From Tritrichomonas foetus (Eukaryota > Parabasalia > Tritrichomonadida > Tritrichomonadidae): a DNA stretch of 64,000 bases. The DNA is taken from contig MLAK01000001.1 in the NCBI GenBank assembly GCA_001839685.1, forward strand, positions 287,433 to 351,432, in the 5' to 3' direction. Positions 7,579-62,187 of the stretch are shown one piece after another. The notes under the pieces were generated by a model. That model searched no databases and was not told where the DNA came from. It worked only from the letters and a program-made list of their open reading frames with translations. Both the position numbers and the translations under genes were made by a program. Position 1 is the stretch's first letter, and the number at the start of each line of letters is the position of its first letter.

Positions 7579-10500
7579 ATGTCAGAACCTTTTAATCTTG
7601 CTAAATTTAATAACCAAATCAACAATCCAGACGAAGACTACACTATTATTGCATTCGATGAACTTAAAAATTATCTAAGTAATGTTGAAGAGTTCGATTT
7701 GCCGCCAGATTCAATTCGACTTTGCTTTTTACATCCAGTAATTGACCGAATTACGGACAAGACACCCGATATTTCAACATTAGTCTTTCGTATCATTGTT
7801 CTTCTTGCAGAAAAATTACCAGTTTGCACCATTAAAGATTACTTCGAAGCAATCTTCGAAGTTGTTTACGATATTGAATGCCAAGTTCGAACTCAAACAC
7901 TTTCAGTATTACGCGAAGTTCTTTCAAACTCAGTTTCGTTTTCAACAGAACGTCAGGATACTCTTGTCAAAAATTTAATCCCTCGCCTCGAAAGAGAAAT
8001 CAAGCAAAACCAAAACGTTGATATTTTAGTTTTCACACTTGAACTTTTAACCTCACTTACAGAGTTTCTTGGATTCCATTTCGATCAACAAAATCTCGAA
8101 TTGATTTTCGAAATCATTAAGAATTTGGCTTCAAATTGTGTTCTTGACTTACTTCCATCAGTTGCATCATTGACTAAAATTTGGATGACGCACGCCTTTC
8201 CTGAACAATTCGATGGAATGATTCATTTTTTATTCAAACTTGGTGAAGAAAGCACAAGTGCATTCACAATTCTTTCTTCGATGGTTTGCTACAAGCCAAT
8301 TATTTATAAGAAATTCTCACAAGAAATAATATCTTTATTTATTCAACAAATTGATAAAGAAGAAGAAGAAGTTACTCAACTTTTAGAAGAAAAACCAGAA
8401 ACTGACATTTTTTATGATACCCAGTATATTCCTCACATTACTGAATATGTTTCTTCATTAGCTTCCTTAACAAAAGCATTTCCAGATCAAAATGACGATG
8501 AAACAGTTGACAACTTTATTGGTATTGCATTTAAATACTTAACATATGGTTCTAATAATGTAGGAGAAGAAATTGCAGCCGATGAAGATGATTTTATAAT
8601 GGAAGGTGATGAAGATGTTGATGATGACATGAAACTTGATGATGTTGATGATGAAGTTATTACTGGAGACGATTCATGGAAGATTAGAAAGACAGCAATG
8701 ACCTTCTCAACCATTTTAATACAATTTTATTCTGCCAAATTCTACGAATCACTTAGTTATGTCAATGAGGAAGAAGAAATCAACTGTTTAGCTGTAGTTG
8801 ATACACTTTTGAGGGATTCTGACACTGGTGCACAAAAGGATGCATTTGCTTTCTTGAAAACAGTTGTACAATACTATAAAGATGAACTTGCTGAAGAGAC
8901 AATTAATAGTTGGTATAGCACTTTAAATACCCAACTTGTTCCTTCCAAGCAAGCAATTTCTGGACTTGTTCTTGAGACAATTGGATCTGTTTTGAATAAG
9001 TGTAGAACTATTCCGCTTAATTTATTAACAGAAATACTTGCTGCTATTCCACCAATTCTTAATACCTCAACCATTCCAGCAGCACTTGAATTATTCAATG
9101 TGATTTTCTCAACAACACAAAGTTCTTCTGAAATAATTACACATATCGCTTTAATGATCGCTGATATTGTTAAACAAAACCGTGTGATTGCAGCAGTTCC
9201 ATATTTGCCAACTTCTTCACGACTCTTCATTTATTCACAGTCTTGCACTCTTTCAAATGACGCTATTAATGCAATAGAAGATCTTGCACAAGCAATTATT
9301 ACATTGAGTAAATCAGATCAATCTGAAAAAGTATCACTGGCATTTGAAGCATTAGGAGTATTTTCTGTGACTTGTAATACTAGCCTAGTTGGAACAGCGA
9401 TTGAATCAATTGTTAATGCACTAAATAATGATATTGCTCTTCGTCCAATAACTCGTGCCATTGCCCTTATTGCTGCTTCCCCAGCCTTTGACCGTCTTTC
9501 CAATTATTTTGATACAATATACGAAAAACTTTGCTCTCTGTTTGAAAATGTTGATGGAACATTGGTGTTCTTTTCATTATGGACAATTTGCTTACTCGCT
9601 AAAAAAGGTGCTGTTAATTCCAATGCCATTGAAAGATCATCATCGTCTCTTATTAACATCATCACATCAGGTGATCCAAAGAATAAGCTCCTTTCACTGA
9701 AAGTTTTACAGTTAGTTCCAGGTGGAGCAACAAATGCACTGAATAGCATTAAAAATGCATTTACTGTAAAATTATCTGATGATGTGATTGCAGAAGCTGC
9801 AAAGTTCATCAATGTATGTGCTGAAACCAACATCGAAAAAGTTCGTTTTACAATCACAGAACTTTCTAATTCTAATCCAATGCCAGAAATTTCAGCAGAG
9901 ATTGCTTCAGTTATTGGATATCCAGCAGGAATGCATCCAGAAATTGGAAACGAACTTCTAGCTAAATTTGAAAAAACTATTATTGGCAACAAAGATAGCG
10001 TTTCACCATTTGTTTTACAATGTGTTGGTGAAATTGGAACTCTTATTGATTTAGGAAACCATACAGAATTGGTTGATGCAATTTTCGCTTTGATTTCCCA
10101 CACTGATAGAATGATCTTTAATGCAGCTGCTGAATGCATTGGATTAATGTCTGTTGGTTCAATCCATGTTGTTCTTAAGCGCTTACTTGAACAAGCATCA
10201 ACTGATAATGATCATTTAGCTGTGTGGACTTTAGCAACTTTATCAATGACGAAAAGATTTGCTGTTATGGAAGGATCCTTCAATAAACTTGGATCTTCCT
10301 ATAAACAAATTACAGAATTCCTTATTACTAATGCGGATTTCTCCAAACCAACAGAATTAAGTACTGCCCAATGTTTCTCAAATCTTATTAAAATTAATGA
10401 AAACTTTTTATCAGAATTACTTTCTATTGCCGCAACAAGTGACATCGCTGGACCAGTTGCATCACATGCCATTTCTTTATTCTTCGATGACTCTGGAAAT

Positions 10501-11262
10501 AAAACAATAATGCGACTAATTCCAACTGTTATGCAAGGATTCGATTTAAATAAGCCTCGAATTTCTCAATACATTATCCAATGCTTAAAGACAGCAATAC
10601 AAAGACCGAAAAATGTGAAATCTCTTGTTTCTTATGTTCCTCAAATATGTGATGCTGTAAGTTTCAACAAGGATATTCATTTAATAACAGAAGCATATGG
10701 ATTTAAGCAAGTTCAAGTTGATATTGGTGAACCGCTGCGTTTTAATGCCATTGAATGCCTTCTTTTCATATTTAAAACATCTCCAACAGCCATTCCCGTT
10801 CCAACTTTGATCAAAGCTGTCCGTGATGCCACACAAGTACCCGAAGAAATAAAAGAAGACAAAAACAGAATCATTGGAAAAGGATGTGAATTGTTGAGTT
10901 TAATGGCAATTTCACGCCAAGTTGAAGAAGCACTCATTGAGAAATTGAAAGAAGCTGTTGATATATTAAAAGAATCAGAAAGATATATTTTCGATTCAAC
11001 ACTTGCACACACGGTTGAAAATGAAGAGTTGATTTTTAGATTAATTGCATGTCTCAGAAAACTTACAGAAAAACAGAGAATTAATGATATAGAGCAGCTT
11101 TATGCCAAATACAAAGCAGATCCTCGAATCAAAAAGATTGAATCTGATCTTTCTTATTCAGTTGATCAGCAAGAAATAGCTTCGTCTGTATCCAGTGGGT
11201 CAGCAAGCTTTTCATTAATGGAAAGTTTCAACCCTGAAGCATCTGTCATTTTCACTCTTTAA
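7579..11262 (+). CDS. CAND1: CAND1 (TIP120), cullin-RING ligase substrate-receptor exchange factor
   Basis: 1227 residues, close to the roughly 1230 of animal CAND1, and built of HEAT-like helical pairs along its whole length. The beginning (DYTIIAFDELKNYL ... FRIIVLLAEKL) matches the first HEAT repeats. A long acidic insert of D and E with a few K/M residues (about residues 333-360) is followed by DDSWKIRKTAMTF, which aligns with the acidic loop and 'SWKVRRAAAK' of CAND1. The C-terminal region (DIGEPLRFNAIECLLFIF ... LIKAVRDA) resembles the TIP120 domain. Family role: binds un-neddylated cullin-RBX1 and lets F-box receptors be exchanged, in cytosol and nucleus. The ATG lies within TTTCATG. 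TAA at the end overlaps TAAA, and AATAAA follows about 10 nt later. Confidence 0.85.
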   Translation: MSEPFNLAKFNNQINNPDEDYTIIAFDELKNYLSNVEEFDLPPDSIRLCFLHPVIDRITDKTPDISTLVFRIIVLLAEKLPVCTIKDYFEAIFEVVYDIECQVRTQTLSVLREVLSNSVSFSTERQDTLVKNLIPRLEREIKQNQNVDILVFTLELLTSLTEFLGFHFDQQNLELIFEIIKNLASNCVLDLLPSVASLTKIWMTHAFPEQFDGMIHFLFKLGEESTSAFTILSSMVCYKPIIYKKFSQEIISLFIQQIDKEEEEVTQLLEEKPETDIFYDTQYIPHITEYVSSLASLTKAFPDQNDDETVDNFIGIAFKYLTYGSNNVGEEIAADEDDFIMEGDEDVDDDMKLDDVDDEVITGDDSWKIRKTAMTFSTILIQFYSAKFYESLSYVNEEEEINCLAVVDTLLRDSDTGAQKDAFAFLKTVVQYYKDELAEETINSWYSTLNTQLVPSKQAISGLVLETIGSVLNKCRTIPLNLLTEILAAIPPILNTSTIPAALELFNVIFSTTQSSSEIITHIALMIADIVKQNRVIAAVPYLPTSSRLFIYSQSCTLSNDAINAIEDLAQAIITLSKSDQSEKVSLAFEALGVFSVTCNTSLVGTAIESIVNALNNDIALRPITRAIALIAASPAFDRLSNYFDTIYEKLCSLFENVDGTLVFFSLWTICLLAKKGAVNSNAIERSSSSLINIITSGDPKNKLLSLKVLQLVPGGATNALNSIKNAFTVKLSDDVIAEAAKFINVCAETNIEKVRFTITELSNSNPMPEISAEIASVIGYPAGMHPEIGNELLAKFEKTIIGNKDSVSPFVLQCVGEIGTLIDLGNHTELVDAIFALISHTDRMIFNAAAECIGLMSVGSIHVVLKRLLEQASTDNDHLAVWTLATLSMTKRFAVMEGSFNKLGSSYKQITEFLITNADFSKPTELSTAQCFSNLIKINENFLSELLSIAATSDIAGPVASHAISLFFDDSGNKTIMRLIPTVMQGFDLNKPRISQYIIQCLKTAIQRPKNVKSLVSYVPQICDAVSFNKDIHLITEAYGFKQVQVDIGEPLRFNAIECLLFIFKTSPTAIPVPTLIKAVRDATQVPEEIKEDKNRIIGKGCELLSLMAISRQVEEALIEKLKEAVDILKESERYIFDSTLAHTVENEELIFRLIACLRKLTEKQRINDIEQLYAKYKADPRIKKIESDLSYSVDQQEIASSVSSGSASFSLMESFNPEASVIFTL

Positions 11263-14297: not shown

Positions 14298-17200
14298 TTA
14301 CAACGCAGTAAGTTTGATAAATTGAGTTGATTTGTTGGATTGCTGTTGCAAGACTTTTTTGAATAAATCTTCAGTTAATTCGCGATTTGGTGTATTATCG
14401 AATTCTATAAGTAATGATGTCATCCTTCCAATAGCCATCCTTATTGATTCAATAAATGATACATAAGAACAATTTGTTTTAGTTTTCACAATTTTGGTCA
14501 GATGATGTAAGTCATCAAATACTTTCAATGTGATAAAATCTTGTCCATTCAATTTGGATTCGAGCTTTTTGGCTTTTCCTTCTAATTCTTGATTTGATAA
14601 AATCTTGTTGAATAGTCTCTTCGCCTTAAGTTTAACTGCATTTTGTTCAATTGGGGAAATTTTGGAAATATCGATGTTGAATTGTGCCAAAAAGTCATTG
14701 GGGTGAAATTCTGAGAAAAGTGGTTGTTTCATCAATTCTTGTTGCTGACATTTAGATACAGTTTGCTGTGTTTGCTGTGGTGAATCATCATGGCAAGGAC
14801 TAAGAATTTTGATTGGCTTCTCTTGTTCTGCAGCTTGTCTCATCAAATCAGATCCATGATTTATATCATCGGAATTAGTTTTGGATAAAGCAAGATGATT
14901 ATCATTACTTGGATTATGTTCATTAGCTTTTTCATTTTCTTTTGGTTGAAGGGTCTGGTCCATGGCCAAATTTGGATTTCTTTGGTGATTAATGTTTCGA
15001 TTTTGGATATTATTGTTTCCTTGAGTTGGTCTTATAGGTAAAAGTTTTTGCATCATTTTATTCATTCCTTCTGTTGAAATAGATTTTGTTAGTATATTAA
15101 GTGTTTTGTTTTGTTGAGAAATTTGTGTTTCTCTTTTCATTTGATCTCTTATCAAAACTGCAGCATCAGCAGAAATAGAAGCAGAAGCATTCTTTAATGA
15201 ATTTCGTTCTTGCTGTGTGTATTTAGATAGTTTATCCATTGACACTGTATGACTAAAACGTTTTGTTGGAATACCAATATCTGACGTAGATAAAGAATCA
15301 TTGCTTCTGCTATTTTGTGGCATATCTCTCCTTTCGGAAAATCCTTCTTCCATGTCAATAACCCAAGATGATGCAAAAGGGACTTTTGTGTAACTATCAA
15401 CACCACCAGAAAGAATCGCCCGAAAATCAGCAATTGGTGCAATAGCAAATTTACTGATTCCAATTGGAGTATTTCCGAATTCTTGAAAATTAACTTTCAT
15501 CCATTTTTTGAAATCTATTGCTTCTGAAATTGGGTTTTTATTTTGTAGACCAATTCCACCTAAAACGAAAATATAATGACCTAAAATAATCGATTTATGG
15601 CAATATCTTGGTTGAACTTCACAAGATTTAACTTTCATCCATGTATGTGTATTAAAATCGAAAATAGAAACATTTCCAGTGATACTTTTGCTTGTATGCC
15701 CACCAATTACAATCATTCTATTTTCAACTATTACAGCTGAATGATTAGTTAATGCATCTGGAATATTTTTTGCATCAATTGTGAATGCAACACCTGTCGA
15801 TGGATCGATAATGATTATATCTTTATTTAATGAACCATTTTCAGTCCTTCCTCCATACGCAACAAGTTTATTCTCATAACATACCATTGAATGTCCTGTT
15901 AATCGAATATCAAAAGATAAAATAATGACACGCCATCTTTCACCATCGAATTCCCATATTTCAGAGAAAAATGTATTTTTATCATTACCAAATGCAATAT
16001 ATAATTTAGTTCCGATAGTTGTGACTGAATGCCCTGATCTTGGTTGTACTGGAGAATTAATTGTGTGCCATCTATTTGATTCAGTGTTATAAACAAGCAT
16101 TGTAGAAACAGTACTGAGTGAAGAATTTATTCCACCGAAAAAGTAAACATTTCCATTCAAATAACATGCATCATGATTCATTAATGGATGCAATTGTTCA
16201 CCTAATTCGACATCTGTCCATTTTACAAATTTCGTATTACACATTATGTTTGATAAGCGTGTATTTCTTTGTTGAATTAAAACATCCATGAATGAAACAC
16301 GTTCAAAATAATCTTCAAATGCAATAATATATTCAGTACTGTTAACAACGGTTGTAAAAGTATCATTTGCCGGACGACAATTCGAAAACTTGAATCCTTC
16401 CAAATTGGTGTGAATTATTGGGGTATGTGATTTCTTTCCTTTTGCGATAATCAATACCGAATCATTAAATAAATAGATGATACCGGAAGAACTTTTAGGC
16501 TTCTGAATAGTGATACACTTTTCTAAAATCAGCCGTCGATCGTTTTGAATCAGTCTAATGGAATTCGGAAGTAATTTTTGAATTTCTCCTAAAATAAGAA
16601 GTTGTTTTACTTTTTGTGATGTTTCATCTGTATCTTTATTCAATTTAATTAATTCTTCATAAGCCATTTCGAGATATGGCATATCAGGATGAAAAGATGG
16701 AGTATTTTTGATTAAATCTCGAATAAGAAGGGAATATCGTGGATATCTTTGAACAGGTGTAATATAATACGATGAAAAATCGCGGCCTTTTCCAGGAGAA
16801 AATCCATTATCAATTTCATTGAGTTTATTTTCGTTATATTTAGAGGATTTTCTCTTTTGACGTATCATTTCATCAACATCTTTGAAATTAGTGACAAAAG
16901 GAATCGAAACTTTAAAGCGTTCAACAAAATTCAAAAAGAGTGGGCCCATTTCTGAAGCATACGATATTTTTATACTTTTTAATTCACGAAATAGATCTTT
17001 ATGAGTATTAATCAATGGATCAACTCCGTTAAAAATAGTCCGTATTTGAAATCTGTCAAAAATACCTGAATTTTGATAAGCTGGTTGCCAATAATCATGA
17101 AGTGATCTCACATCCATTAAGAAATTTTCTTCAGAATCAACAATTTCAGCACAGAGTCGAATTCGTTGATTAATCCTTTTCATATTGGATTCTGAAATGT

Positions 17201-17828
17201 TACAGTGAAATATCAAGTGAGAATTTTTTGATGTTTCATAAATCTTGAGAAATGGGATGGAATTGCTTATGACTGTAGAGTTATGAGACAAAATTTGAGG
17301 TTCACTGCATTCAAGGGCCAAAGTCTTCACACACTCCTTTGTAAAGTCTTCTATTGTCCATTTGTTTAATTGTTCGTTGGTAAAATTAATGTCCATTTTG
17401 GGAAATTCGTAATTTAAGTCAGGATACACATTGTTATTAGAATTATTATGAAAATCATTATTAGAATTATTATTACAATTATGATTAGAATTATGATTAG
17501 AATTGTGATTAGATATTCTGTCAAGTTGAGTTTTTATAAGTATTGTTACTGTATAATCTAGGAAAGATGAATCGCATATATGTAATGAGAAAGGAGGCAA
17601 AGGGAATTTTTTGATTTTGTCTTTCGGCAAGTTTAAGATGAGTTGCGGATATTTAACAAATGGTTGATCAGAATAATTCAGCCTCTCTCTGAAAAATGGA
17701 GTTTTAATCGAAAGATAGGATTGATCCAATTTTAACCAACTGCAAAGTTGGCCAACTGTTGCGTTGATATGTGAGCTTACATCTACAATTTCGTTTGGAG
17801 AAAGATGTCTCGAGAAAACAGCATTCAT
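14298..17828 (-). CDS. Rho guanine nucleotide exchange factor with DH, PH and kelch propeller
   Basis: 1176 residues, ATG at 17828-17826 lying in GATCATG. Order: a unique N-terminus (1-130) ending in an Asn/His repeat (~131-155, NHNSNHNSNHN type); a linker; a DH domain at ~218-435 with IRLCAEIVDSEENFLMDV, YYITPVQRYPRYSLLI (the hallmark helix) and YEELIKLNKD; a PH-like domain at ~450-545 (IYLFNDSVLIIAKG, then AFEDYFERVSFMDVL); six kelch-like blades at ~565-850 (CYLNGNVYFFGG, GHSVTTIGTKLYIAFG, GHSMVCYENKLVAYGG, NHSAVIVENRMIVIGG, KSIILGHYIFVLGG, AIADFRAILSGG-type); a disordered Q/N-rich linker; and a helical C-terminus. Family role: activates Rho/Rac GTPases that control actin. A kelch domain directly after DH-PH is unusual among well-known GEFs. 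Confidence 0.85.
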   Translation of the reverse strand: MNAVFSRHLSPNEIVDVSSHINATVGQLCSWLKLDQSYLSIKTPFFRERLNYSDQPFVKYPQLILNLPKDKIKKFPLPPFSLHICDSSFLDYTVTILIKTQLDRISNHNSNHNSNHNCNNNSNNDFHNNSNNNVYPDLNYEFPKMDINFTNEQLNKWTIEDFTKECVKTLALECSEPQILSHNSTVISNSIPFLKIYETSKNSHLIFHCNISESNMKRINQRIRLCAEIVDSEENFLMDVRSLHDYWQPAYQNSGIFDRFQIRTIFNGVDPLINTHKDLFRELKSIKISYASEMGPLFLNFVERFKVSIPFVTNFKDVDEMIRQKRKSSKYNENKLNEIDNGFSPGKGRDFSSYYITPVQRYPRYSLLIRDLIKNTPSFHPDMPYLEMAYEELIKLNKDTDETSQKVKQLLILGEIQKLLPNSIRLIQNDRRLILEKCITIQKPKSSSGIIYLFNDSVLIIAKGKKSHTPIIHTNLEGFKFSNCRPANDTFTTVVNSTEYIIAFEDYFERVSFMDVLIQQRNTRLSNIMCNTKFVKWTDVELGEQLHPLMNHDACYLNGNVYFFGGINSSLSTVSTMLVYNTESNRWHTINSPVQPRSGHSVTTIGTKLYIAFGNDKNTFFSEIWEFDGERWRVIILSFDIRLTGHSMVCYENKLVAYGGRTENGSLNKDIIIIDPSTGVAFTIDAKNIPDALTNHSAVIVENRMIVIGGHTSKSITGNVSIFDFNTHTWMKVKSCEVQPRYCHKSIILGHYIFVLGGIGLQNKNPISEAIDFKKWMKVNFQEFGNTPIGISKFAIAPIADFRAILSGGVDSYTKVPFASSWVIDMEEGFSERRDMPQNSRSNDSLSTSDIGIPTKRFSHTVSMDKLSKYTQQERNSLKNASASISADAAVLIRDQMKRETQISQQNKTLNILTKSISTEGMNKMMQKLLPIRPTQGNNNIQNRNINHQRNPNLAMDQTLQPKENEKANEHNPSNDNHLALSKTNSDDINHGSDLMRQAAEQEKPIKILSPCHDDSPQQTQQTVSKCQQQELMKQPLFSEFHPNDFLAQFNIDISKISPIEQNAVKLKAKRLFNKILSNQELEGKAKKLESKLNGQDFITLKVFDDLHHLTKIVKTKTNCSYVSFIESIRMAIGRMTSLLIEFDNTPNRELTEDLFKKVLQQQSNKSTQFIKLTAL

Positions 17829-47250: not shown

Positions 47251-49905
47251 ATGGGTTTGGGTAAAATAATTCATCGAATGGACGAAAAGATTCTCAGCTT
47301 ACAACGAGTGCATGAGCTTTACAAACAAACAAAGGAATTGAAGCCAGTCCGAGACAACTGTGGTACCAAGGCTCTGAATTTATGCATCGCCAAAGAAACA
47401 GGTCTTGAAATACCACCTGGTTTCGTTATTACCGGCGCTGGATTTGAAGCAATAAGTAAAACAGTTAACAATTCTCTCCCTTCACAATTATGGGATCAAA
47501 TTGTTTCACAGATTCGCGAAATTGAAGATTCCACCAAAACGAAATTTTCAGGTGAAAATCCACTTTTTTTGGCGGTTTCTGGAGTAACCCCAACACCTGG
47601 CGTTGTCTGCGTTGGAATGAACGACTACACTACTCGAATGCTTGAAAAAAAGAGTAATAATCGCGCATTCGCATATTATTGCTATTCAAAATTCATTCGT
47701 TCTTTTGGCGTTTTGGTTTTCAATACCCCAGAATATGAATTTGACGATTTACTTGACAGCTACATCGCTTCTCGAGATATCCAAAATATTTCGAAATGTT
47801 GTGCAACCGACTGGATCCAAATCTCAAAACTATTCAAATCTGTGATAGTTAGATATAGTGGCTCCCCATTCCCACAAGATCCAATGGAGCAGCTGAAGCA
47901 AGTTATTATGGGATCCGTTAATTACTTTGGAAATGAAAATGCTACAAATTATCGAGCTGAAGTTCAAGAAGACTCTACTGTTGGACATTCAATACTGGTT
48001 ACAATGATGCGTTTTGGTGGAATTAACTCAAAATCATGTGCAGGAGCAATTTCTTCACATGATCTCGTTACTGGCGCAGCAAAGATTTCTGGAATTTTTG
48101 GATTAAACGCTCTTGTTGATGATGTCTGCGAAGAGAATTTAGATACCTCTCAAATCGATGAAATGAGTAGTTCATTCGGTGATTGCTATAAAGCTTTGTC
48201 AAATTCATTCAATGCAATCACAAAAATCTTCAAAGAACCAATGACTCTCAAATTTGTTGTTGAAGATGGACACATTTATATAGTATCAATTAAAAGATCA
48301 ACATTTTCTGGGTTTGGCCGTTTTTCTGCCGCTGTTTCACTTGTTGATTCAAAAGTCATCACATCAAATGATGCTTTAACTTCACTTCACCCATCTGATT
48401 TGAAATCGATTCTTGCCCAAAGAGTGAAGAAAGCTCCACATTCATGTTTCTGCAAAGGACATCCTGGAGCTTATGGTGGCAATACAGGAATCATTTCTGT
48501 GAATTCAAGTGACGCCCTAATGAAATCTAAAAGAGGTCAAAAAGTTGTTTTTGTCAGAAAAAGGTTCTGTCACACTGATATGAAAACTTTAATAGTATCT
48601 AATGGCTTGATAACAGTTAAAGGCGGTCCATATTCTGCTGCTGCTTATTATGCAAACGCACTATGTAAGCCAGCTGTGATTGGATGCTCTTCATTATTAA
48701 TTGACGAATCATTAATCACAAGTGAGAATCAAACTTTATCAATTGGCGATGAAATAACTATTTCTAATGGAGTTGCGTATGTTGCTGCCTTACCTCTGAC
48801 TCTTCCTGATTCGATTGATGATAAGGATGTTAAACAGGTAATGAGATGGATTGATGAGACACGATCTGGAAAGATATCTGTTTTCAATGAAGCCAAATCA
48901 ATTGATGAAGTTGTTCTTTCGTTTACTGCTGGTGCTGATGGAGTCGGAATGTTTAAGATTGAAAACTTCATTGTGAATGATGCTGAAGCTATTACTGCAT
49001 TTGCAGAAACAAATGATCAAAGTATTGCTGTTGAAATTGAAAATAGATTAAGTGCTTCATTTTCTGATCTTTTTGCAGCAGCTAAAGACAAACTTGTTAC
49101 TGTTCAATTAATCGCGAATCCATTAGCATCTTTCCTTCCATCTGCTGAAGAATTAACTGAAGAAATTGCTACATTACGTGTACAAAAGGAGCTTTCAAAA
49201 GATTTTGCAAAAGATGATTTGCTTCAATCTAAAATCAACATTCTTAATCGTGTAAAACATCATACAGAGAAAAACCCATTACTAGGATTAAGAGGAGTCA
49301 GACTTGGATTAATTAACCAAGAAATGATTGAGTTACAAATACGATCAATCTTAAAAGGAGCTAAAGTTTCACGAAGGAGAGGAGCTGCCCCAAGAATTAG
49401 AATCATGCTTCCATTGGTTACCGATGCACGAGAAATTGTTAAACTTGAATCAATCACAAATGATGTGATTTTAGAATTCGAAGAAGCCGCTGAACTTGGT
49501 GCAATGATTGATAATCCACGCGCTTGTTATGTATCAGGTAGAATTGCCGAAATTGCCCGAATTTTATGTTTCGATTCTACAAATTTGCACGAAGCAACTT
49601 TTGGAATGAGCTCTAAAGATGATCCAGATATGTTTTTATCGAATTACACAGACAACAGAATCTTTGATGAGAATCCGTTTACCACAATTGACCAAAACGG
49701 AGTTGGTAAACTTATGAAGAAATGCGTGGAAGATGCAAAGAAAGCAAATCCTGATGTTTTGATTTGTATCACTGGCCAGAATTGTTATGATATCAAATCG
49801 GTTAATTTTTGTTATAATATTGGTATTGGTACTATTACATGTGATCCAATGATGACTCCTGTTGCCAGACTTTGTGCAGCACAGGCTGTTTTGACAAAGG
49901 CATGA
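47251..49905 (+). CDS. PPDK-like protein lacking catalytic residues (probable pseudoenzyme)
   Basis: 884 residues, the full length of pyruvate phosphate dikinase (about 875-900). Family features are clear: GTKALNL (Lys40, equivalent to Lys22 of the bacterial enzyme), NPLLGLRGVRLGL, RIMLPLV, DQNGVGKLM and, near the end, TCDPMMTPVARLCAAQA with the acid-base Cys864. But the phosphocarrier motif GG-x-T-S-H-A-A reads GGPYSAAAY at 458-466, so the catalytic His is Ala463 and the regulatory Thr is Tyr461. The ATP-site 'VRSGA' Arg is missing (FLAVSGVTPTPG). 'LQTRNG' reads IVSIKRS. 'GLCRTEHM' reads GMFKIENF (Lys569), and 'FGTNDLTQ' reads LHEATFG. The frame is intact, so it is under selection or recently duplicated. 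The start is fixed by an in-frame TGA just before the ATG. Likely a structural or regulatory relative of active PPDK. Confidence 0.85.
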   Translation: MGLGKIIHRMDEKILSLQRVHELYKQTKELKPVRDNCGTKALNLCIAKETGLEIPPGFVITGAGFEAISKTVNNSLPSQLWDQIVSQIREIEDSTKTKFSGENPLFLAVSGVTPTPGVVCVGMNDYTTRMLEKKSNNRAFAYYCYSKFIRSFGVLVFNTPEYEFDDLLDSYIASRDIQNISKCCATDWIQISKLFKSVIVRYSGSPFPQDPMEQLKQVIMGSVNYFGNENATNYRAEVQEDSTVGHSILVTMMRFGGINSKSCAGAISSHDLVTGAAKISGIFGLNALVDDVCEENLDTSQIDEMSSSFGDCYKALSNSFNAITKIFKEPMTLKFVVEDGHIYIVSIKRSTFSGFGRFSAAVSLVDSKVITSNDALTSLHPSDLKSILAQRVKKAPHSCFCKGHPGAYGGNTGIISVNSSDALMKSKRGQKVVFVRKRFCHTDMKTLIVSNGLITVKGGPYSAAAYYANALCKPAVIGCSSLLIDESLITSENQTLSIGDEITISNGVAYVAALPLTLPDSIDDKDVKQVMRWIDETRSGKISVFNEAKSIDEVVLSFTAGADGVGMFKIENFIVNDAEAITAFAETNDQSIAVEIENRLSASFSDLFAAAKDKLVTVQLIANPLASFLPSAEELTEEIATLRVQKELSKDFAKDDLLQSKINILNRVKHHTEKNPLLGLRGVRLGLINQEMIELQIRSILKGAKVSRRRGAAPRIRIMLPLVTDAREIVKLESITNDVILEFEEAAELGAMIDNPRACYVSGRIAEIARILCFDSTNLHEATFGMSSKDDPDMFLSNYTDNRIFDENPFTTIDQNGVGKLMKKCVEDAKKANPDVLICITGQNCYDIKSVNFCYNIGIGTITCDPMMTPVARLCAAQAVLTKA

Positions 49906-54741: not shown

Positions 54742-57700
54742 ATGCAAGGGGCTAATAAGACTCATGCGCCTCTCGAAATCAATAATTCGCAAATGCAAGA
54801 AGTCAATAGGCAAAACCCTACACTTGAAATTGCACAATCTTCGCAAGCACAAGATTTTAATCAAGAAACGCCAGCTCTCGCCATCTCAAACGTCCAAAGT
54901 AACAGTGCAACGAATACTCCAAACGCAATATATAATTGTGTTATCACTTCGATAGATGGCACCCCCCCAACAACACCAAGTAAAAGTAATGAAACCGCCA
55001 AGCCAGATTTATCTCTATTTACACCAAAAGATGATCCAAGTTCACCAAATAAGATAAAAAGTTTTGTTGTTGCTTCAGAGGACTCTTTCTCTGAGGATTC
55101 CGAAGATCAATCGAAAATTAATAAGAAACGAGTTAAAGTATCAACACCTTTGCAAAGAATGAAAAAAGAACAGCAGGACCATCCAGAAAAAAGACACAAA
55201 CACAAACATCACCAGCGCGGAAGAAGAAATTCTAATAGTGCCAAATCTGATACTGCCGTTTTGATGAATAAAAACGAGCAATCCAAGAATTTAGCGATAT
55301 CGAAAGACAAAAAGGCTGATACTGAAAATGAATCTTCCTCTGGAAAATATAACTCAAGTTCATACAAATCATCAGCATCAAACAAATCAAACAGCTCAAT
55401 GAAATCAGCATCAAGCAAATCATCATCAAAGAACTCAAATGCTGTTATCGAAAGGAATGCTGACATAAAATCAGATAAAAGTGAATCTGAAAAATCACAT
55501 CATTCAAGCTCTTCCAAGAAATCTAACAACGAAAAAGCAGAAACTTTCACCTTAAAGCCAAAAAATTATCAGGGAACATACTCAACTCCATCTGGAGAAA
55601 TTCCAGGTTCATCATCGGACGATGAACCAATTGAAATTAAATTAAATATGAAACTGAAACTTGAATCAAGCAGTTCTGCAAGCCTTCATGAAGATCCAGT
55701 TATTCAAAATAGAGATGCAAACAGCTTGACACTTTCTTCTGGTCACCCTGATTCTGCCGATGACGTAAATGTTGCAGGACAACTCAGCGAAGATAATGAA
55801 AAAGAAAATATTGAAAGTGATAGCGAAAGTGACAGCAGCAGCCTATCTAATGACGAAAAGGAAGATAACGAAAACGTCAATGAAAACGAAGATGAAGAAT
55901 ATGAAGATGAGGATGATGAACCAAAGATGATGTCATCTTCATCTGTCCAAACAGTTGATGAAAATGAAGGTACTTCTGATGCCAACAACGAAGTTGAAAA
56001 GCCAGGAACACCAGCAAAGACATACATCCGAGTCAAGAGGAGGAAGAGATGCAAGAAAGTTGATGTTGGAGTCCAAGTTAAGTATATAATGGTACTTAAA
56101 TCACCAAAAGGACAAGAGCCAGTACAAACTCGCTCAATTGATGACATTGAAGAAGAAAAGCATCACAAGAAGAAGCATGAAAAGAAATCTAAGTCAGATA
56201 AAGATATGAAGCACAAGAACAAGAAAGACACAGGAAAAACAAAGAGGAGATATGACAGCGATGATGAAGACGATGATAAATATCGAAAGAAGCATGATAA
56301 GAAACACGACAAGAAACAAGAAGATAAAAAGAAACATGATAAGAAGAAACACGATAAGAAGAAATCTAAGAAGGAAACTGATGATGAAATTAAACAAAAG
56401 AAATATGATAAGAAGGAACAAGACAAGAAGTCCGAAAAACAGTCTGTAAAATCAGATAAGGTTTCAGCCAAATCAGACAAAGTCTCTGTTAAGTCCGATA
56501 AGCCAGGAAGCAATCCTGCAAGTAAAACACCAAGCGTTAAACCTGTTGAAGCTTCAAAACAAGAAATCGAAAGTGATGTTTCAATGCCACCACATAAACG
56601 TCCAGTTCTAAACAATGCTCAATACATTGAAAAGCCAAAAGCTCAAGAACCAGAAGAAGAGGAAGTCATTGAGGAGACTTCAGATTCTTCTGTTAAATTA
56701 CCACCAAAGAGTGAACCAGTCCGCCTTTTACAATCACCATTAAAGGCCCGAAGAGCAGGCGCACCACTTATTCAAGAAGATGAATTGGAAACAATTAATG
56801 CTTCACCAAAAAGAAAAGTTGTTGAAAGAGCTGCAGAATTATCTGAAGAGTCCTCAACAGCATTTGAATCAGCATTTGATACATTCCGTCCTTCTGCTTA
56901 TGAAAGAAGAATTGATCAATCAATTCAGAAGGCTAGATTGCTTCAAAGGATGAATTCACCGAAATTCACAGATAAACAGAAACAAGAAAAAGGTATCATT
57001 TTGAAGGCAGAAGTTGATAAATCTGATAAATCAGTTCAACTTTCATCCCAATCTAATGAACTTAATGAAGAATCTTTTGATTCATTTGCTTCATTTGAAG
57101 AAAGACTTCATCTTGTTGGAACACCCAAAGAAGATCGTGAACAAGTTTTATCAAGAAATGTTAAAGTTGATCTTCATGACGATGTTACTCCAAGAAAAGT
57201 TGATGTAGATAAATCATCAAACAAGTCAGCATCATCAAACAGAATTCGTTTAATGACACCAAAAGATGCCCTTAAAGCTTCAAAGTCATCATCTTCATCA
57301 TCTGTCCATAAGCTTCAAGAATTAAGCGAATCAGACTCCGAACTCGATTCTGAACCACCAAAGATTAAGGATGGAGCAATTATTCGTAATGATGACAGTG
57401 ATGTTGTGATTCAATTAACACCAGAATCCTTAGATTCGAATAAATTAAGCGAAGATTCAGAACCAGAAGCAGTCCAGGGACAACTTTCTGAGGATGAAGA
57501 AGACGAAAAACCAAAGAAGAGAGAATTGAAAGTTAAGGTTAACAAAGAAAGTTTCAAACAAGTTACTAAGAAGGAACCAGTTAAGGATTCAAAGGTAGTA
57601 CCAAAGAAGGATTCAAAGAAGAAAGGCAAAGCAAAGAAGAACGGCGATGCTTCAAGCAGTGCTACAATGACTGACCAATTCAGTGAAAGCTCACTTAGTT

Positions 57701-60700
57701 CCATTCATTCACCAAGAATTGAAGATGAAAATGAACTTCTTTCTCAAAACGAAGAATTACCAAATCTCGATCAAACATCAACAGAACAAAGAGCAACAAA
57801 TGAAAACCTTTGTGCTGCAATGTCATCAATTGTTTTATATTCTGGCCAAGATACAAAAGATGACGATGAAGACGAAGTTGACGATTTTGACAACATTTCT
57901 AAATCTGAACCATTTGAAAAAGCTCCATCTTCAAACAAATTCAACAGAAATACAGCTAAATTCAACGATTCAGATTCCCAAATCGAAAATGATTCCGAAT
58001 CATCATCATTCAAGTTAACTGAAGGCGATGATTCAAAATCAAGATCATTCAAGAAATCGCCAAACCAATCACTGGACAGCAACAAGATCGACTCATCTTC
58101 ATCTGCAGCTGAAATGGTTCTTGATGTAAGTGAATCAGGTAGTGAGAAGATTGGTGAATCATCATCATCCTCAGCATCTAAGAAGTCGCGTTCTGCTTCA
58201 TTGTCAGAAAAGAGCAGCATACATTCATCATCACACAAATCTGAATCAGATAAACTCAGCAAAAAATCAGAATCCGAAAAAATCTCTAAATCTGAATCAG
58301 AAAAGATCTCTAAGTCCGAATCCGATAAACATAGCAAGAAATGTGAATCTGGAAAAGGACAACAATTGGAAAATAGTAGTATTGTTTCAAGCTCATCATT
58401 TGTTGAATTACATCCAAACAATGATGAGCACAAACATTTATCTTCATCAAGCCATAAGAAGGATAAATTAAGTTCATCTTCTGGATTAGCTAGTCCAAAG
58501 AAGGAATCATCTAAGCTTTCTTCATCTTCACATAAAGGCAAACAAATGTCAAGTTCTTCATCACCAAAGTCTGGTGGAAATTCAGTAAGTGATTTCACTG
58601 AATACTTCTCCAACCTTGACAGCGAAGAAATGATCCACAGAGGCATGCAACAAAGCAAGTTCACTCAAAGAACAAAGAGTCTTGCCTCATCCGATAAAAT
58701 CGATTCAACAACTACTAGTGAGGCTTCTAAATACTCTTCATCAAGTAGCAAAGCATCATCAAAGAAAGGAAGCTCGAATCATGCATCTGAAGCACATGAA
58801 AGCAGTAGCCTTATTCAAGACTCAAAGTTATCAGCAAGCTCATCACATAAATCATCATCAAAGAAGAATTATCTTTCAGAAGAAAATGAACAAGTTGAGT
58901 CCTCCAATCATTCATTAGATAATTCACTTCAAATCTTATCAGATCATTCTTCATCTGAGCACTCTTCATCTAAACATTCTTCAAGCCACGCTAACCAAGC
59001 ATCAGATCACTCATCAAGCAAATCATCTGGTAAAGCATCTTCGAAGCATTCATCGGCTCACGCGTTGGAACCAGAATCTGATTCATTTGATCATCTTTCA
59101 TCTCACCGCTCCGAGAAAGCACCATCTCAACATTCTGAAAAAGTTTTATCACAACATTCTGAGAAACTTTCTTCCCAAAGCTCAGATAAACCCTTATCAC
59201 ATCACTCTTCTGGAAAAGGTGGAAAATCATCATCATCAAAGCCAGAATCAATTCTTAAGTCATCAAGCCACACTGGTTCATCAACTTTTGCTGAAACCAC
59301 TTCCGAATCATCTTTAGTATTCACACAAAAGAGAGGAGTAAGATTTGCACCATCTGAAGATTCAAGCCTTGTTAATGACTTTCCGGGTGATTCATTCCAT
59401 TCCAAAGAATCTGAAGAAGCCATGCTTACACCAGATGAGCAGCTTGTATTCTTAGATGAAAAGCGTCCAGTCATTGATCCAAAGGAACAACCGGTTTTCC
59501 CAATGAAATCAGACAAAAGTGATGAAGAAAACCGTGTTGCCGATCAACTTCGAGAATTAAAGATGACTTCATCTTCAAGCAAAAAGAGTAAATCTTCATC
59601 AAAGAAGTCTAGTACTAAGAATATTGAATCAGAATCATCTTCACTTTCTCACAGCCCGCCAATCAATGAAGATGACGAAGAAAATGAAATCGTTTTGAAT
59701 GCTCCATCACATTCAAGCGATCATCCACCTTCAAGATCTACTTCAGAATCAGGATCAGGATCAAGAAAGAGCTCAGCCAAGCACAGTAGTTCTATTAAAG
59801 AACCAAATTCATTATCAAGCAAAGCTTCAAAATCTACAACACGTTCATACAAATCCGATTCAAGTGTACCACAAACTCAACCACGCGGTGGAATTAGATC
59901 AGGAAGCTCTAGTATCATTGGTGACTTCCCAGGAGATTCTTTCCATTCACGCGAATCAGAAATTTTGATGCTCGAAGAAGGTGAAGAAGAAGAGTCCATT
60001 GATTATGAGAAACCGGTTATTGATCCAAAAGATCAGCCTGTTTTCCCAATGAAAGAAGAATTGAGTGATGAAGATAAGGTCACTAAGCAACTTAAAGGAC
60101 TTAAGATGACAAACAGCTCATCAAAATCACTTAATGAAGATGTTTCATCATCAAGCAAGAAATCAGCTTCTTCAAAACACAGTAAAAAGTCGGTTTCTTC
60201 ACACTCATCAAAGAAAAGTGTATCCAAAACATTAGAAATCCCAGAAGAAGAATTAGAAGAAAACGCAGATGAAGAAGATCTTGTTGACAATATCAACTCT
60301 TCTTCATCATCAAAGAAGAGCACATCAAGTAAGAATTCAACCTCATCTGCTTATGCATCTACCAATAAACGTGGAATCAACATTGTTTCTTCTGAATCTG
60401 ACATTCTCAACGATTTCCCAGGTGACACATTTTCAAGTGCTGTAGTTCCAAACGACAATGATAACTCTGAAGAAATGGTCCTTGAGCCAGACACTGATAT
60501 CATTGTTTACAAAGACCAACCAGTCATTGATCCAAAAGACCAACCAGTCTTTCCAATGAAAGAAGATCATGAAATGTCTGATAAACTTCGTAACTGTAAA
60601 GTTTCAAACAGTTCATCTAAAGACCCTGAGAATATTTCATCATCTTCTTCTAAATCATCAAAGGCTTCATCTAAGGCCTCTTCTACAAAAGCATCCGTAA

Positions 60701-62187
60701 AATCATCATCAAAGGCATCTGCTAAATCATCAGCAAAAGTTTCTGAAAAGGAATCATTTTCATCAAAGGCATCGAAATCTTCATCAAAGAAGATCAGCGA
60801 CCAAGAAGAAGAAACTATTAAGGAAAAGAATATGAGCTCTTCATCATCATCTATTCTTGATGGACCACCAAAGAGCCCAGCAGGAAGTGTCAGTGGAAAA
60901 GGACTATTGAAAGAAGAAATTTCATCAATTTCTGACAGCAACCATCAATCATCAGCCTCTAAAAAGAGTCAATCAAGTAAAAAGAGCGGGAAAAGTGCTA
61001 AATCAAAATCGTCTAACTTAAAAGTTGATCTTGATGAACGTGGAGCAACAATTTCACAAGATCATGCAAATGATGAACCTGATTCTCATTCTTCCAGCAA
61101 GAAGAACAGAAAGAAGTTCGAAATGGGCAGTTCTGGAAGCGATCTTCGAAATTTTGAAGATGGAAGTTCAACAGAACGTGCATTTGAAGAAATCCAAAAG
61201 AAGAACCAGAAACACTCAAGGAATCATGGTGAATTCAATTCACAAGAGGAAATTCCACTAATTGTAAAATACAAGGATACAAATAGCCTAACAAATGAAG
61301 GCACTTCTTTAAATAGAAATAAAATAAATTTGAAACCAAGTGAATCATTATCAATCAATGTTGCTAATGATAAAAATCATAGTACCAGCAGTTCAGCATT
61401 ACAAAGTGATGCAAAATCCAATAAATCTTCAAAATCAAGTAAATCATCGAAATCGAACGCTTCAACCAAATCAGAAAAATCATCAAAATCAAATTCTTCG
61501 AATAAATCATCAAAATCCAACAAATCGAATAATAATAATGTTGAACAACCAATTCAAACAAGAGAATTAGAAGTAATCGAAAAACATGATGAAAACGAAA
61601 ACGCCTCATCTTCTGCAGTTGAACTCGAAGTTGACGCATCAAATGACAAAAAGATGAATTCTGCTTCATCACGATCATCTTCAAAATCCGCAAAATCAGA
61701 TAAATCAAATAAGTCCGTCAAATCCGAAAAATCTACAAAATCTGAAAAATCAACAACTTCCAAGAAATCTGAAAAAGATGAAGAAAAGAGCCTTTCTTCG
61801 GTTGCTTCTTCTTCTTCTTCAGTTAAGAGGAGCACAAGTTCTAAGAAAACAAGTTCTGCAGCAACAAGCTCAGCTATTTCATCAACAGTCATCAAAAATA
61901 TGAGTGAAAGTGATGGAACTATTGATATAAACGACTCTGAAGATCAACAACTCGTTGAAGTCGTCCGCGGAAAAGAAATCTCAAGAGAACCAATCAAAAG
62001 AGAAGCAGTTGTCCGCCACGACACCAGCGAGGAAAATTCACGTGAAAGCTTGCTTGAAATAATTGGTTCATCTTCATTCGAAAAGGAGTCAAAAGAGCCA
62101 ATGAAGAACTTGGGTGAAGACAAGAACAATACTTCGGGAAGTCTACAAGAGAAAATATCGCTTGACATGAGCAGCATTGAAGAGTGA
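54742..62187 (+). CDS. Giant Ser/Lys-rich disordered protein with thrice-repeated PGD/QPVFPMK module
   Basis: 2481 residues in one uninterrupted frame, ATG start. It is dominated by S, K, E and D, with runs such as SSSSKKSKSSSKKSS and a KHDKK-type basic block near residues 505-560, and is almost surely disordered and heavily phosphorylated. Less biased islands exist: TYIRVKRRKRCKKVDVGVQV (~430), and AFDTFRPSAYERRIDQSIQK (~715). A module occurs three times (about 1530-1615, 1715-1790 and 1875-1955): RG-x-x-x, then [DN]FPGD[ST]F, an acidic stretch, PVIDPK[ED]QPVFPMK, and L[RK]xxK[MV][TS]xSSSK. No signal peptide, membrane segment or known domain. Possible roles are nuclear or cytoskeletal scaffold. 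Myb-like palindrome 37 bp upstream; AATAAA about 25 nt after the stop. Confidence 0.75.
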   Translation: MQGANKTHAPLEINNSQMQEVNRQNPTLEIAQSSQAQDFNQETPALAISNVQSNSATNTPNAIYNCVITSIDGTPPTTPSKSNETAKPDLSLFTPKDDPSSPNKIKSFVVASEDSFSEDSEDQSKINKKRVKVSTPLQRMKKEQQDHPEKRHKHKHHQRGRRNSNSAKSDTAVLMNKNEQSKNLAISKDKKADTENESSSGKYNSSSYKSSASNKSNSSMKSASSKSSSKNSNAVIERNADIKSDKSESEKSHHSSSSKKSNNEKAETFTLKPKNYQGTYSTPSGEIPGSSSDDEPIEIKLNMKLKLESSSSASLHEDPVIQNRDANSLTLSSGHPDSADDVNVAGQLSEDNEKENIESDSESDSSSLSNDEKEDNENVNENEDEEYEDEDDEPKMMSSSSVQTVDENEGTSDANNEVEKPGTPAKTYIRVKRRKRCKKVDVGVQVKYIMVLKSPKGQEPVQTRSIDDIEEEKHHKKKHEKKSKSDKDMKHKNKKDTGKTKRRYDSDDEDDDKYRKKHDKKHDKKQEDKKKHDKKKHDKKKSKKETDDEIKQKKYDKKEQDKKSEKQSVKSDKVSAKSDKVSVKSDKPGSNPASKTPSVKPVEASKQEIESDVSMPPHKRPVLNNAQYIEKPKAQEPEEEEVIEETSDSSVKLPPKSEPVRLLQSPLKARRAGAPLIQEDELETINASPKRKVVERAAELSEESSTAFESAFDTFRPSAYERRIDQSIQKARLLQRMNSPKFTDKQKQEKGIILKAEVDKSDKSVQLSSQSNELNEESFDSFASFEERLHLVGTPKEDREQVLSRNVKVDLHDDVTPRKVDVDKSSNKSASSNRIRLMTPKDALKASKSSSSSSVHKLQELSESDSELDSEPPKIKDGAIIRNDDSDVVIQLTPESLDSNKLSEDSEPEAVQGQLSEDEEDEKPKKRELKVKVNKESFKQVTKKEPVKDSKVVPKKDSKKKGKAKKNGDASSSATMTDQFSESSLSSIHSPRIEDENELLSQNEELPNLDQTSTEQRATNENLCAAMSSIVLYSGQDTKDDDEDEVDDFDNISKSEPFEKAPSSNKFNRNTAKFNDSDSQIENDSESSSFKLTEGDDSKSRSFKKSPNQSLDSNKIDSSSSAAEMVLDVSESGSEKIGESSSSSASKKSRSASLSEKSSIHSSSHKSESDKLSKKSESEKISKSESEKISKSESDKHSKKCESGKGQQLENSSIVSSSSFVELHPNNDEHKHLSSSSHKKDKLSSSSGLASPKKESSKLSSSSHKGKQMSSSSSPKSGGNSVSDFTEYFSNLDSEEMIHRGMQQSKFTQRTKSLASSDKIDSTTTSEASKYSSSSSKASSKKGSSNHASEAHESSSLIQDSKLSASSSHKSSSKKNYLSEENEQVESSNHSLDNSLQILSDHSSSEHSSSKHSSSHANQASDHSSSKSSGKASSKHSSAHALEPESDSFDHLSSHRSEKAPSQHSEKVLSQHSEKLSSQSSDKPLSHHSSGKGGKSSSSKPESILKSSSHTGSSTFAETTSESSLVFTQKRGVRFAPSEDSSLVNDFPGDSFHSKESEEAMLTPDEQLVFLDEKRPVIDPKEQPVFPMKSDKSDEENRVADQLRELKMTSSSSKKSKSSSKKSSTKNIESESSSLSHSPPINEDDEENEIVLNAPSHSSDHPPSRSTSESGSGSRKSSAKHSSSIKEPNSLSSKASKSTTRSYKSDSSVPQTQPRGGIRSGSSSIIGDFPGDSFHSRESEILMLEEGEEEESIDYEKPVIDPKDQPVFPMKEELSDEDKVTKQLKGLKMTNSSSKSLNEDVSSSSKKSASSKHSKKSVSSHSSKKSVSKTLEIPEEELEENADEEDLVDNINSSSSSKKSTSSKNSTSSAYASTNKRGINIVSSESDILNDFPGDTFSSAVVPNDNDNSEEMVLEPDTDIIVYKDQPVIDPKDQPVFPMKEDHEMSDKLRNCKVSNSSSKDPENISSSSSKSSKASSKASSTKASVKSSSKASAKSSAKVSEKESFSSKASKSSSKKISDQEEETIKEKNMSSSSSSILDGPPKSPAGSVSGKGLLKEEISSISDSNHQSSASKKSQSSKKSGKSAKSKSSNLKVDLDERGATISQDHANDEPDSHSSSKKNRKKFEMGSSGSDLRNFEDGSSTERAFEEIQKKNQKHSRNHGEFNSQEEIPLIVKYKDTNSLTNEGTSLNRNKINLKPSESLSINVANDKNHSTSSSALQSDAKSNKSSKSSKSSKSNASTKSEKSSKSNSSNKSSKSNKSNNNNVEQPIQTRELEVIEKHDENENASSSAVELEVDASNDKKMNSASSRSSSKSAKSDKSNKSVKSEKSTKSEKSTTSKKSEKDEEKSLSSVASSSSSVKRSTSSKKTSSAATSSAISSTVIKNMSESDGTIDINDSEDQQLVEVVRGKEISREPIKREAVVRHDTSEENSRESLLEIIGSSSFEKESKEPMKNLGEDKNNTSGSLQEKISLDMSSIEE

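Follow-up and report, generated by a model that had tools for sequence, protein, structure and literature searches.

A probable pyruvate phosphate dikinase pseudoenzyme, intact over its full length, in Tritrichomonas foetus

Among the systems described so far, the closest to the protein reported here is pyruvate phosphate dikinase (PPDK; TIGR01828; Clostridium symbiosum structure 1kbl), from which it differs in lacking the phosphocarrier His and in having ATP-site and PEP-site residues replaced, including Cys831. For trichomonads, a passage in a 2006 paper (PMC1665464) mentions two very similar PPDK genes of Trichomonas vaginalis, one of which was speculated to be losing function, and an extract of the T. 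gallinae membrane proteome (PMC6812828) includes both a ‘pyruvate, phosphate dikinase family protein’ and, separately, a ‘PEP-utilizing enzyme, TIM barrel domain’ protein. The nearest analogy that we have seen may be the testis-specific carbohydrate-metabolism pseudoenzymes of Drosophila: according to excerpts of that work (PMC11836677), one canonical enzyme is likewise accompanied by paralogues predicted to be inactive and suggested to be regulatory, but the enzymes are different, the organism is an animal and the paralogues are tissue-restricted. No description of PPDK pseudoenzymes in trichomonads was found in the titles and abstracts searched. Pseudoenzymes are well known as a class; an old, multi-paralogue parabasalid family derived from PPDK appears to be new within this literature.

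Reading frame, predicted fold and active-site residues

In the window, by which we mean the whole stretch of 64,000 nucleotides of T. foetus DNA that was analysed, an open frame of 884 codons and a stop codon is found at 47251..49905 on the + strand, and its integrity is as originally predicted. The first ATG is probably not the true start: the coding sequence is more plausibly 47278..49905 (+), because all six homologues begin, in the alignment, at the tenth residue of the frame, Met10, and residues 1–10 of the structural model have a low mean pLDDT of 53. Other long ORFs of the window include two without a Pfam match at E 0.001, at 54742-62187 (2481 aa) and 7579-11262 (1227 aa), and one of 1176 aa at 14298-17828 (–) with kelch repeats and a RhoGEF domain.

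The Pfam domains PEP-utilizers_C (109.3 bits) and PEP-utilizers (29.1 bits) were both detected above cut-off in the window protein, and the ATP-binding domain PPDK_N scored 23.6 bits, slightly below its cut-off of 27. When compared to solved structures using phmmer, residues 31–880 were matched by the PPDKs of plants and Clostridium, the ten top rows having E-values between 4.6e-92 and 4.8e-88. AlphaFold predicted a complete fold (pLDDT 89.9, pTM 0.85) from an alignment that included canonical PPDKs and thereby favours the PPDK fold; together with the structure comparison, this model gives the full-length domain order of ATP-grasp, phosphohistidine and PEP barrel. The score against the PPDK equivalog TIGR01828 is 496.9 bits, below the cut-off of 843.45, and the protein is neither a PEP synthase (PEP_synth, 62.9 against a cut-off of 739.75) nor a PTS enzyme I (PTS_I_fam, 47.7 against 341.7) by these models.

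Residues were mapped onto C. symbiosum PPDK numbering (1kbl) by aligning the window protein with its relatives, with seven paralogues, with the C. symbiosum enzyme and with four PPDKs presumed to be bacterial. The 15 sites compared are those that we take, from work on the C. symbiosum enzyme, to be catalytic or ligand-binding: besides the phosphocarrier H455, a presumed ATP-site set (K22, R92, R135, D280, D321, E323, Q335, R337) and a presumed PEP/pyruvate-site set (R561, R617, E745, N768, D769, C831). The window protein replaces 13 of them, four conservatively (R135K, R337K, R561K, E745D), and keeps K22 and D280 only, besides E563.

In the ATP-grasp-like nucleotide domain (residues ~31–349; 47341..48297, +), two of eight ATP-site residues are identical, Lys40 (K22) and Asp291 (D280), and the changes are R92S (Ser110), R135K, D321T, E323K, Q335S and R337K. 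The swivelling phosphohistidine domain (residues ~398–502; 48442..48756, +) contains the former catalytic motif, aligned as GGPYSAAAY (residues 458–466; 48622..48648, +), in which Tyr461 stands for T453 and Ala463 for H455, the phosphocarrier histidine that the PPDK enzyme requires. None of the six PEP/pyruvate-site residues is retained in the TIM-barrel domain that corresponds to the PEP/pyruvate-binding domain (residues ~529–880; 48835..49890, +), where R561K (Lys569), R617Q, E745D, N768T (Thr777), D769N (Asn778) and C831T were found.

The alignment bears out the motif changes first noticed by eye in the letters, namely His to Ala463, Thr to Tyr461, the missing VRSGA arginine and the altered GLCRTEHM and NDLTQ motifs. 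It does not bear out the accompanying statement that the C-terminal Cys stays: Cys864 (TCDP) aligns with C854 of the SCSP motif, while the catalytic Cys831 of GICGEHGG is Thr841, and the loss is therefore larger than was reported. A mere displacement of the catalytic residues is ruled out for R92 and His455, since the nearby stretches LFLAVSGVTPTPG and VKGGPYSAAAYYANALCKPAV contain no Arg and no His, respectively; at the place of R337, Lys348 is adjoined by Arg349. The window protein very probably cannot run the PPDK reaction, judging from these residues.

Conservation, paralogues and ancestry

Six homologues of the window protein were found, all of them full length (864–898 aa), intact and without the His. 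Five share 51–57% identity with it, among them Tritrichomonas musculus M9Y10_029181 (P0004), and the sixth, a metagenomic protein, shares 42%. Across the seven-member clade that they form with the window protein, the H455 position varies freely (A, S, S, S, K, L, R), position 453 is Tyr and position 454 Ser in every member (Tyr461 and Ser462), and R617 has become Gln in six (Gln619 in the window protein). There are also 18 positions at which the clade has one residue throughout and the nine canonical sequences compared have another throughout. The 15 former catalytic columns hold a mean of 2.93 distinct residues among the seven members, versus 2.71 over all columns, which indicates that they are no longer under any particular constraint. 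Individual members still have some of the lost residues: R337 is still Arg in four of the seven (P0002–P0005), P0007 retains Cys831, Glu323 and Arg135, and R561 is Arg in P0002–P0004 and Lys or Ser in the other four. The losses were therefore not all fixed in the ancestor and, because R561 varies inside the clade, its loss alone proves little.

As a neutral control, substitution on the window frame was simulated 200 times (substitutions only, a control distinct from dN/dS). At 55% identity the simulated frames had acquired 30.1 stops on average (range 13 to 46), and at 42% identity 39.1. Because the homologues are intact where neutral decay would give about 30 stops, a decaying pseudogene is excluded for practical purposes. 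The original suggestion of a whole-length pseudoenzyme, taken as an enzyme homologue that is intact and conserved with its essential residues replaced, is thus strongly supported: the predicted fold is complete, only two of the 15 sites are unchanged, the His is absent from all six homologues, each of them intact, and the TIGR01828 score is 496.9 against 843.45.

The genome (G000; 63.7 Mb, 1064 contigs) encodes two IMP dehydrogenases, one of which (L054) matches the T. foetus enzyme of PDB 1ak5 at each of its 503 residues, in agreement with T. foetus as the source. It was searched in three ways, which agreed on the same eight PPDK-like loci, with frames of 884–930 aa and no stops. Only C842 keeps all 15 sites and passes the equivalog cut-off (1189.1 bits), and is the active-looking paralogue for which a search had been advised. 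The other seven, the window gene included, are altered to different degrees: C258 keeps 9 sites (640.7 bits), C537 8 (837.4, slightly below the cut-off), C253 7 (628.8), C666 6 (549.8), C115 4 (555.7), and C470 (289.6) and the window gene 2 each. In C253 (L019:2161-4893, –) the entire phosphohistidine domain is gone from an intact frame, which has acidic insertions and an acidic C-terminal tail.

C115 and C253, the proteins of which are only 28–29% identical over 375–394 aligned residues, have in common an upstream 16-mer, AAACGGACGAAAAGTG. It occurs exactly twice in the 63.7 Mb, and both copies start 39–40 bases upstream of the ATG, at G000:C115:108843-108858 for the C115 gene and at G000:C253:38916-38931 for the C253 gene. 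No wider regulon of this box was seen among sites with up to two mismatches (39 + 36, versus 40 + 40 for the reversed control).

A tree was constructed from 40 rows chosen from the proteins fetched. Eighteen of them, namely the window protein, C470, C666, C258 and 14 public proteins, group in a single clade (support 100/100), C115 pairs with C253 (96/89), and C537 falls in an unresolved fork with the canonical parabasalid-type and bacterial enzymes. The canonical parabasalid-type PPDKs (C842, P0100, P0104, P0101) all contain a linker insert of ~15 residues, which is also full in C537 and C253 and partial in C115, but is absent from the window protein and all other members of the 18-member clade. 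The clade and the canonical parabasalid-type enzymes have in common a longer loop in the barrel domain, of 75–82 residues in the latter and 76 in the window protein, compared to 62–70 in the presumed bacterial PPDKs (four rows) and that of C. symbiosum. On account of the tree, the missing insert and the common loop, the window clade is judged to be old, as opposed to a recent duplicate of the active gene. We are unsure of its exact placement and its relation to bacterial PPDKs because of the long branches (C470, 1.95; C115, 1.55). The path in the tree from the window protein to P0004 is ~0.67, versus ~0.28 from C842 to P0100 (which need not be of the same species as P0004), and the window gene may evolve ~2.4 times faster than the canonical gene.

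The sister group of C258 (P0087, P0094–P0099, P0102, P0103; C258 itself being L002) belongs to the same 100/100 clade and, like the window protein, has its PEP-site residues replaced, with R561 as Pro in 9/9. Unlike the window protein, its members retain most of the ATP site and, in 7/9, also His455 (Phe in P0096 and Arg in P0103), and they may still bind nucleotide. By these residues the C258 group has either taken a different course from the window group or lost less, and it is possibly a nucleotide-binding intermediate stage.

Prokaryotic members of the window subfamily were sought in genome contigs with two peptide patterns only, a weak scan, and none of the 60 pattern-matched stretches was a relative by tblastn. 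The homologue searches, in which most rows are nameless and which require shared 5-residue words, listed 86 and 84 proteins; none of these carries the name of T. vaginalis, which does not imply absence from that species.

A broad expansion of the glycolytic families can be rejected for this genome: the searches gave one locus for phosphoglycerate kinase and two for pyruvate kinase, each above its cut-off. The two pyruvate kinase loci (G000:C231:49757-50725 and G000:C897:5145-6113; Pfam 417 and 391 bits) contrast with a passage in a review (PMC8100219) that places T. foetus among organisms without pyruvate kinase. Enolase is an exception, with two divergent copies among eight. In L046 (C209) and L047 (C835), the motif SHRSGET, which we take to be canonical for enolase together with GDEGGFAP and LDAAASEF, reads ARRSGET and ATSERET; GDEGGFAP is replaced in both, and L047 is without the LDAAASEF stretch. 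These two are likely, from their motifs, to be enolase pseudoenzymes in parallel to the PPDK family.

Expression and possible roles

Codon adaptation was computed against 22 tubulin, enolase and EF1A genes (12 of 18 tubulin, 6 of 8 enolase and 4 of 6 EF1A-type loci), some of which are themselves poorly adapted, down to 0.379. The index is 0.716 for C842, versus 0.389 for the window gene and 0.382–0.476 for the other six paralogues. The background is 0.383 ± 0.066, obtained from 19 ORFs out of the 24 listed in the window, after exclusion of the PPDK gene itself and of four short ones (210–291 aa). Codon use thus suggests, as indirect evidence, that expression of the window gene is ordinary and not abundant. 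The word ‘dikinase’ is absent from the main text of a T. foetus transcriptome paper (PMC9203502) and of two T. musculus papers (PMC10944700, PMC11978803).

On balance, we favour the reading that the window protein is a stable, full-length PPDK fold with a non-catalytic job, as a subunit or scaffold or as a ligand-responsive switch. It would have been kept for this job, with residues replaced in each of the two active sites and at the phosphocarrier position. PPDK dimerises through its C-terminal barrel, and the window protein could likewise be a protein-binding subunit, dimeric through this domain; we propose such a subunit because the scaffold is kept, most active-site and carrier residues are lost and expression is probably modest. 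Its partner may be itself or another pseudo-PPDK of the same cell and is less likely to be the active PPDK. In such a switch the central swivelling domain would move without passing phosphate, and modest expression would fit a regulator more than a bulk enzyme.

The original prediction had raised mixed dimers with active PPDK, through which the window protein would regulate the enzyme directly. The two proteins have the same fold, including the C-terminal barrel, and the intact, active-looking C842 is present in the genome. However, they share only 29% identity and the window protein is without the C842 linker insert, so that matching interfaces are not to be expected; it is also placed in a separate, old clade and is no recent copy of the active gene. 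The very unequal codon adaptation of the two genes points the same way: at background level, the window protein is unlikely to equal PPDK in amount, which speaks against one-to-one pairing. The mixed-dimer idea is thus somewhat weakened, and we consider it unlikely. The same codon use argues against a bulk structural protein, for instance of the trichomonad cytoskeleton, as ten of the 12 tubulin genes used have indices of 0.74–0.89, and the literature searched on dikinase with costa or trichomonads gave no supporting passage. A complete, stable fold without chemistry, present in several paralogues, is what such a protein might look like, but this role seems very improbable to us.

The remodelled pockets might instead carry out another reaction, or Tyr461-Ser462 might be a new phosphate acceptor. 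The invariance of these two residues in all seven members, the Gln in six of seven at R617 and the 18 differently fixed positions are consistent with this, and a changed activity is conceivable because Tyr461 and Gln619 are fixed or nearly so. Since both PPDK ligand sets are depleted and the former catalytic columns vary like the average column, we regard a new enzymatic function as quite improbable. An ordinary pseudogene in early decay would account for the missing catalytic residues and perhaps for the faster evolution, but is hardly credible when seven of seven members are intact at up to 58% divergence, when neutral simulation predicts about 30 stops at 55% identity and when the remaining paralogues are old and likewise intact.

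More speculatively, and with considerable doubt, we hypothesize that PPDK gave rise, in parabasalids, to a family of proteins without catalysis, which would join one another in a complex shaped like PPDK, with a regulatory or sensory role and no part in pyruvate metabolism. The basis for this is the presence in one genome of four or more paralogues from a single old clade together with further altered copies, one of them without the phosphocarrier domain.

Several altered proteins are named pyruvate, phosphate dikinase in public records, namely P0004 (UniRef) and P0007, P0098 and P0099 (JGI). Because of such names, as many as eight PPDKs may be entered in reconstructions of how trichomonads obtain energy, when a single one possesses every residue for the reaction. 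The presence of clades at different stages of loss, with most of the ATP site and the His kept in the C258 group and neither in the window group, makes the order of loss testable. A glycolytic pseudoenzyme of such a size, with residues of two active sites and of a swivelling carrier gone and the three-domain fold kept, would show to what use the body of a dynamic, multi-domain enzyme can be put.
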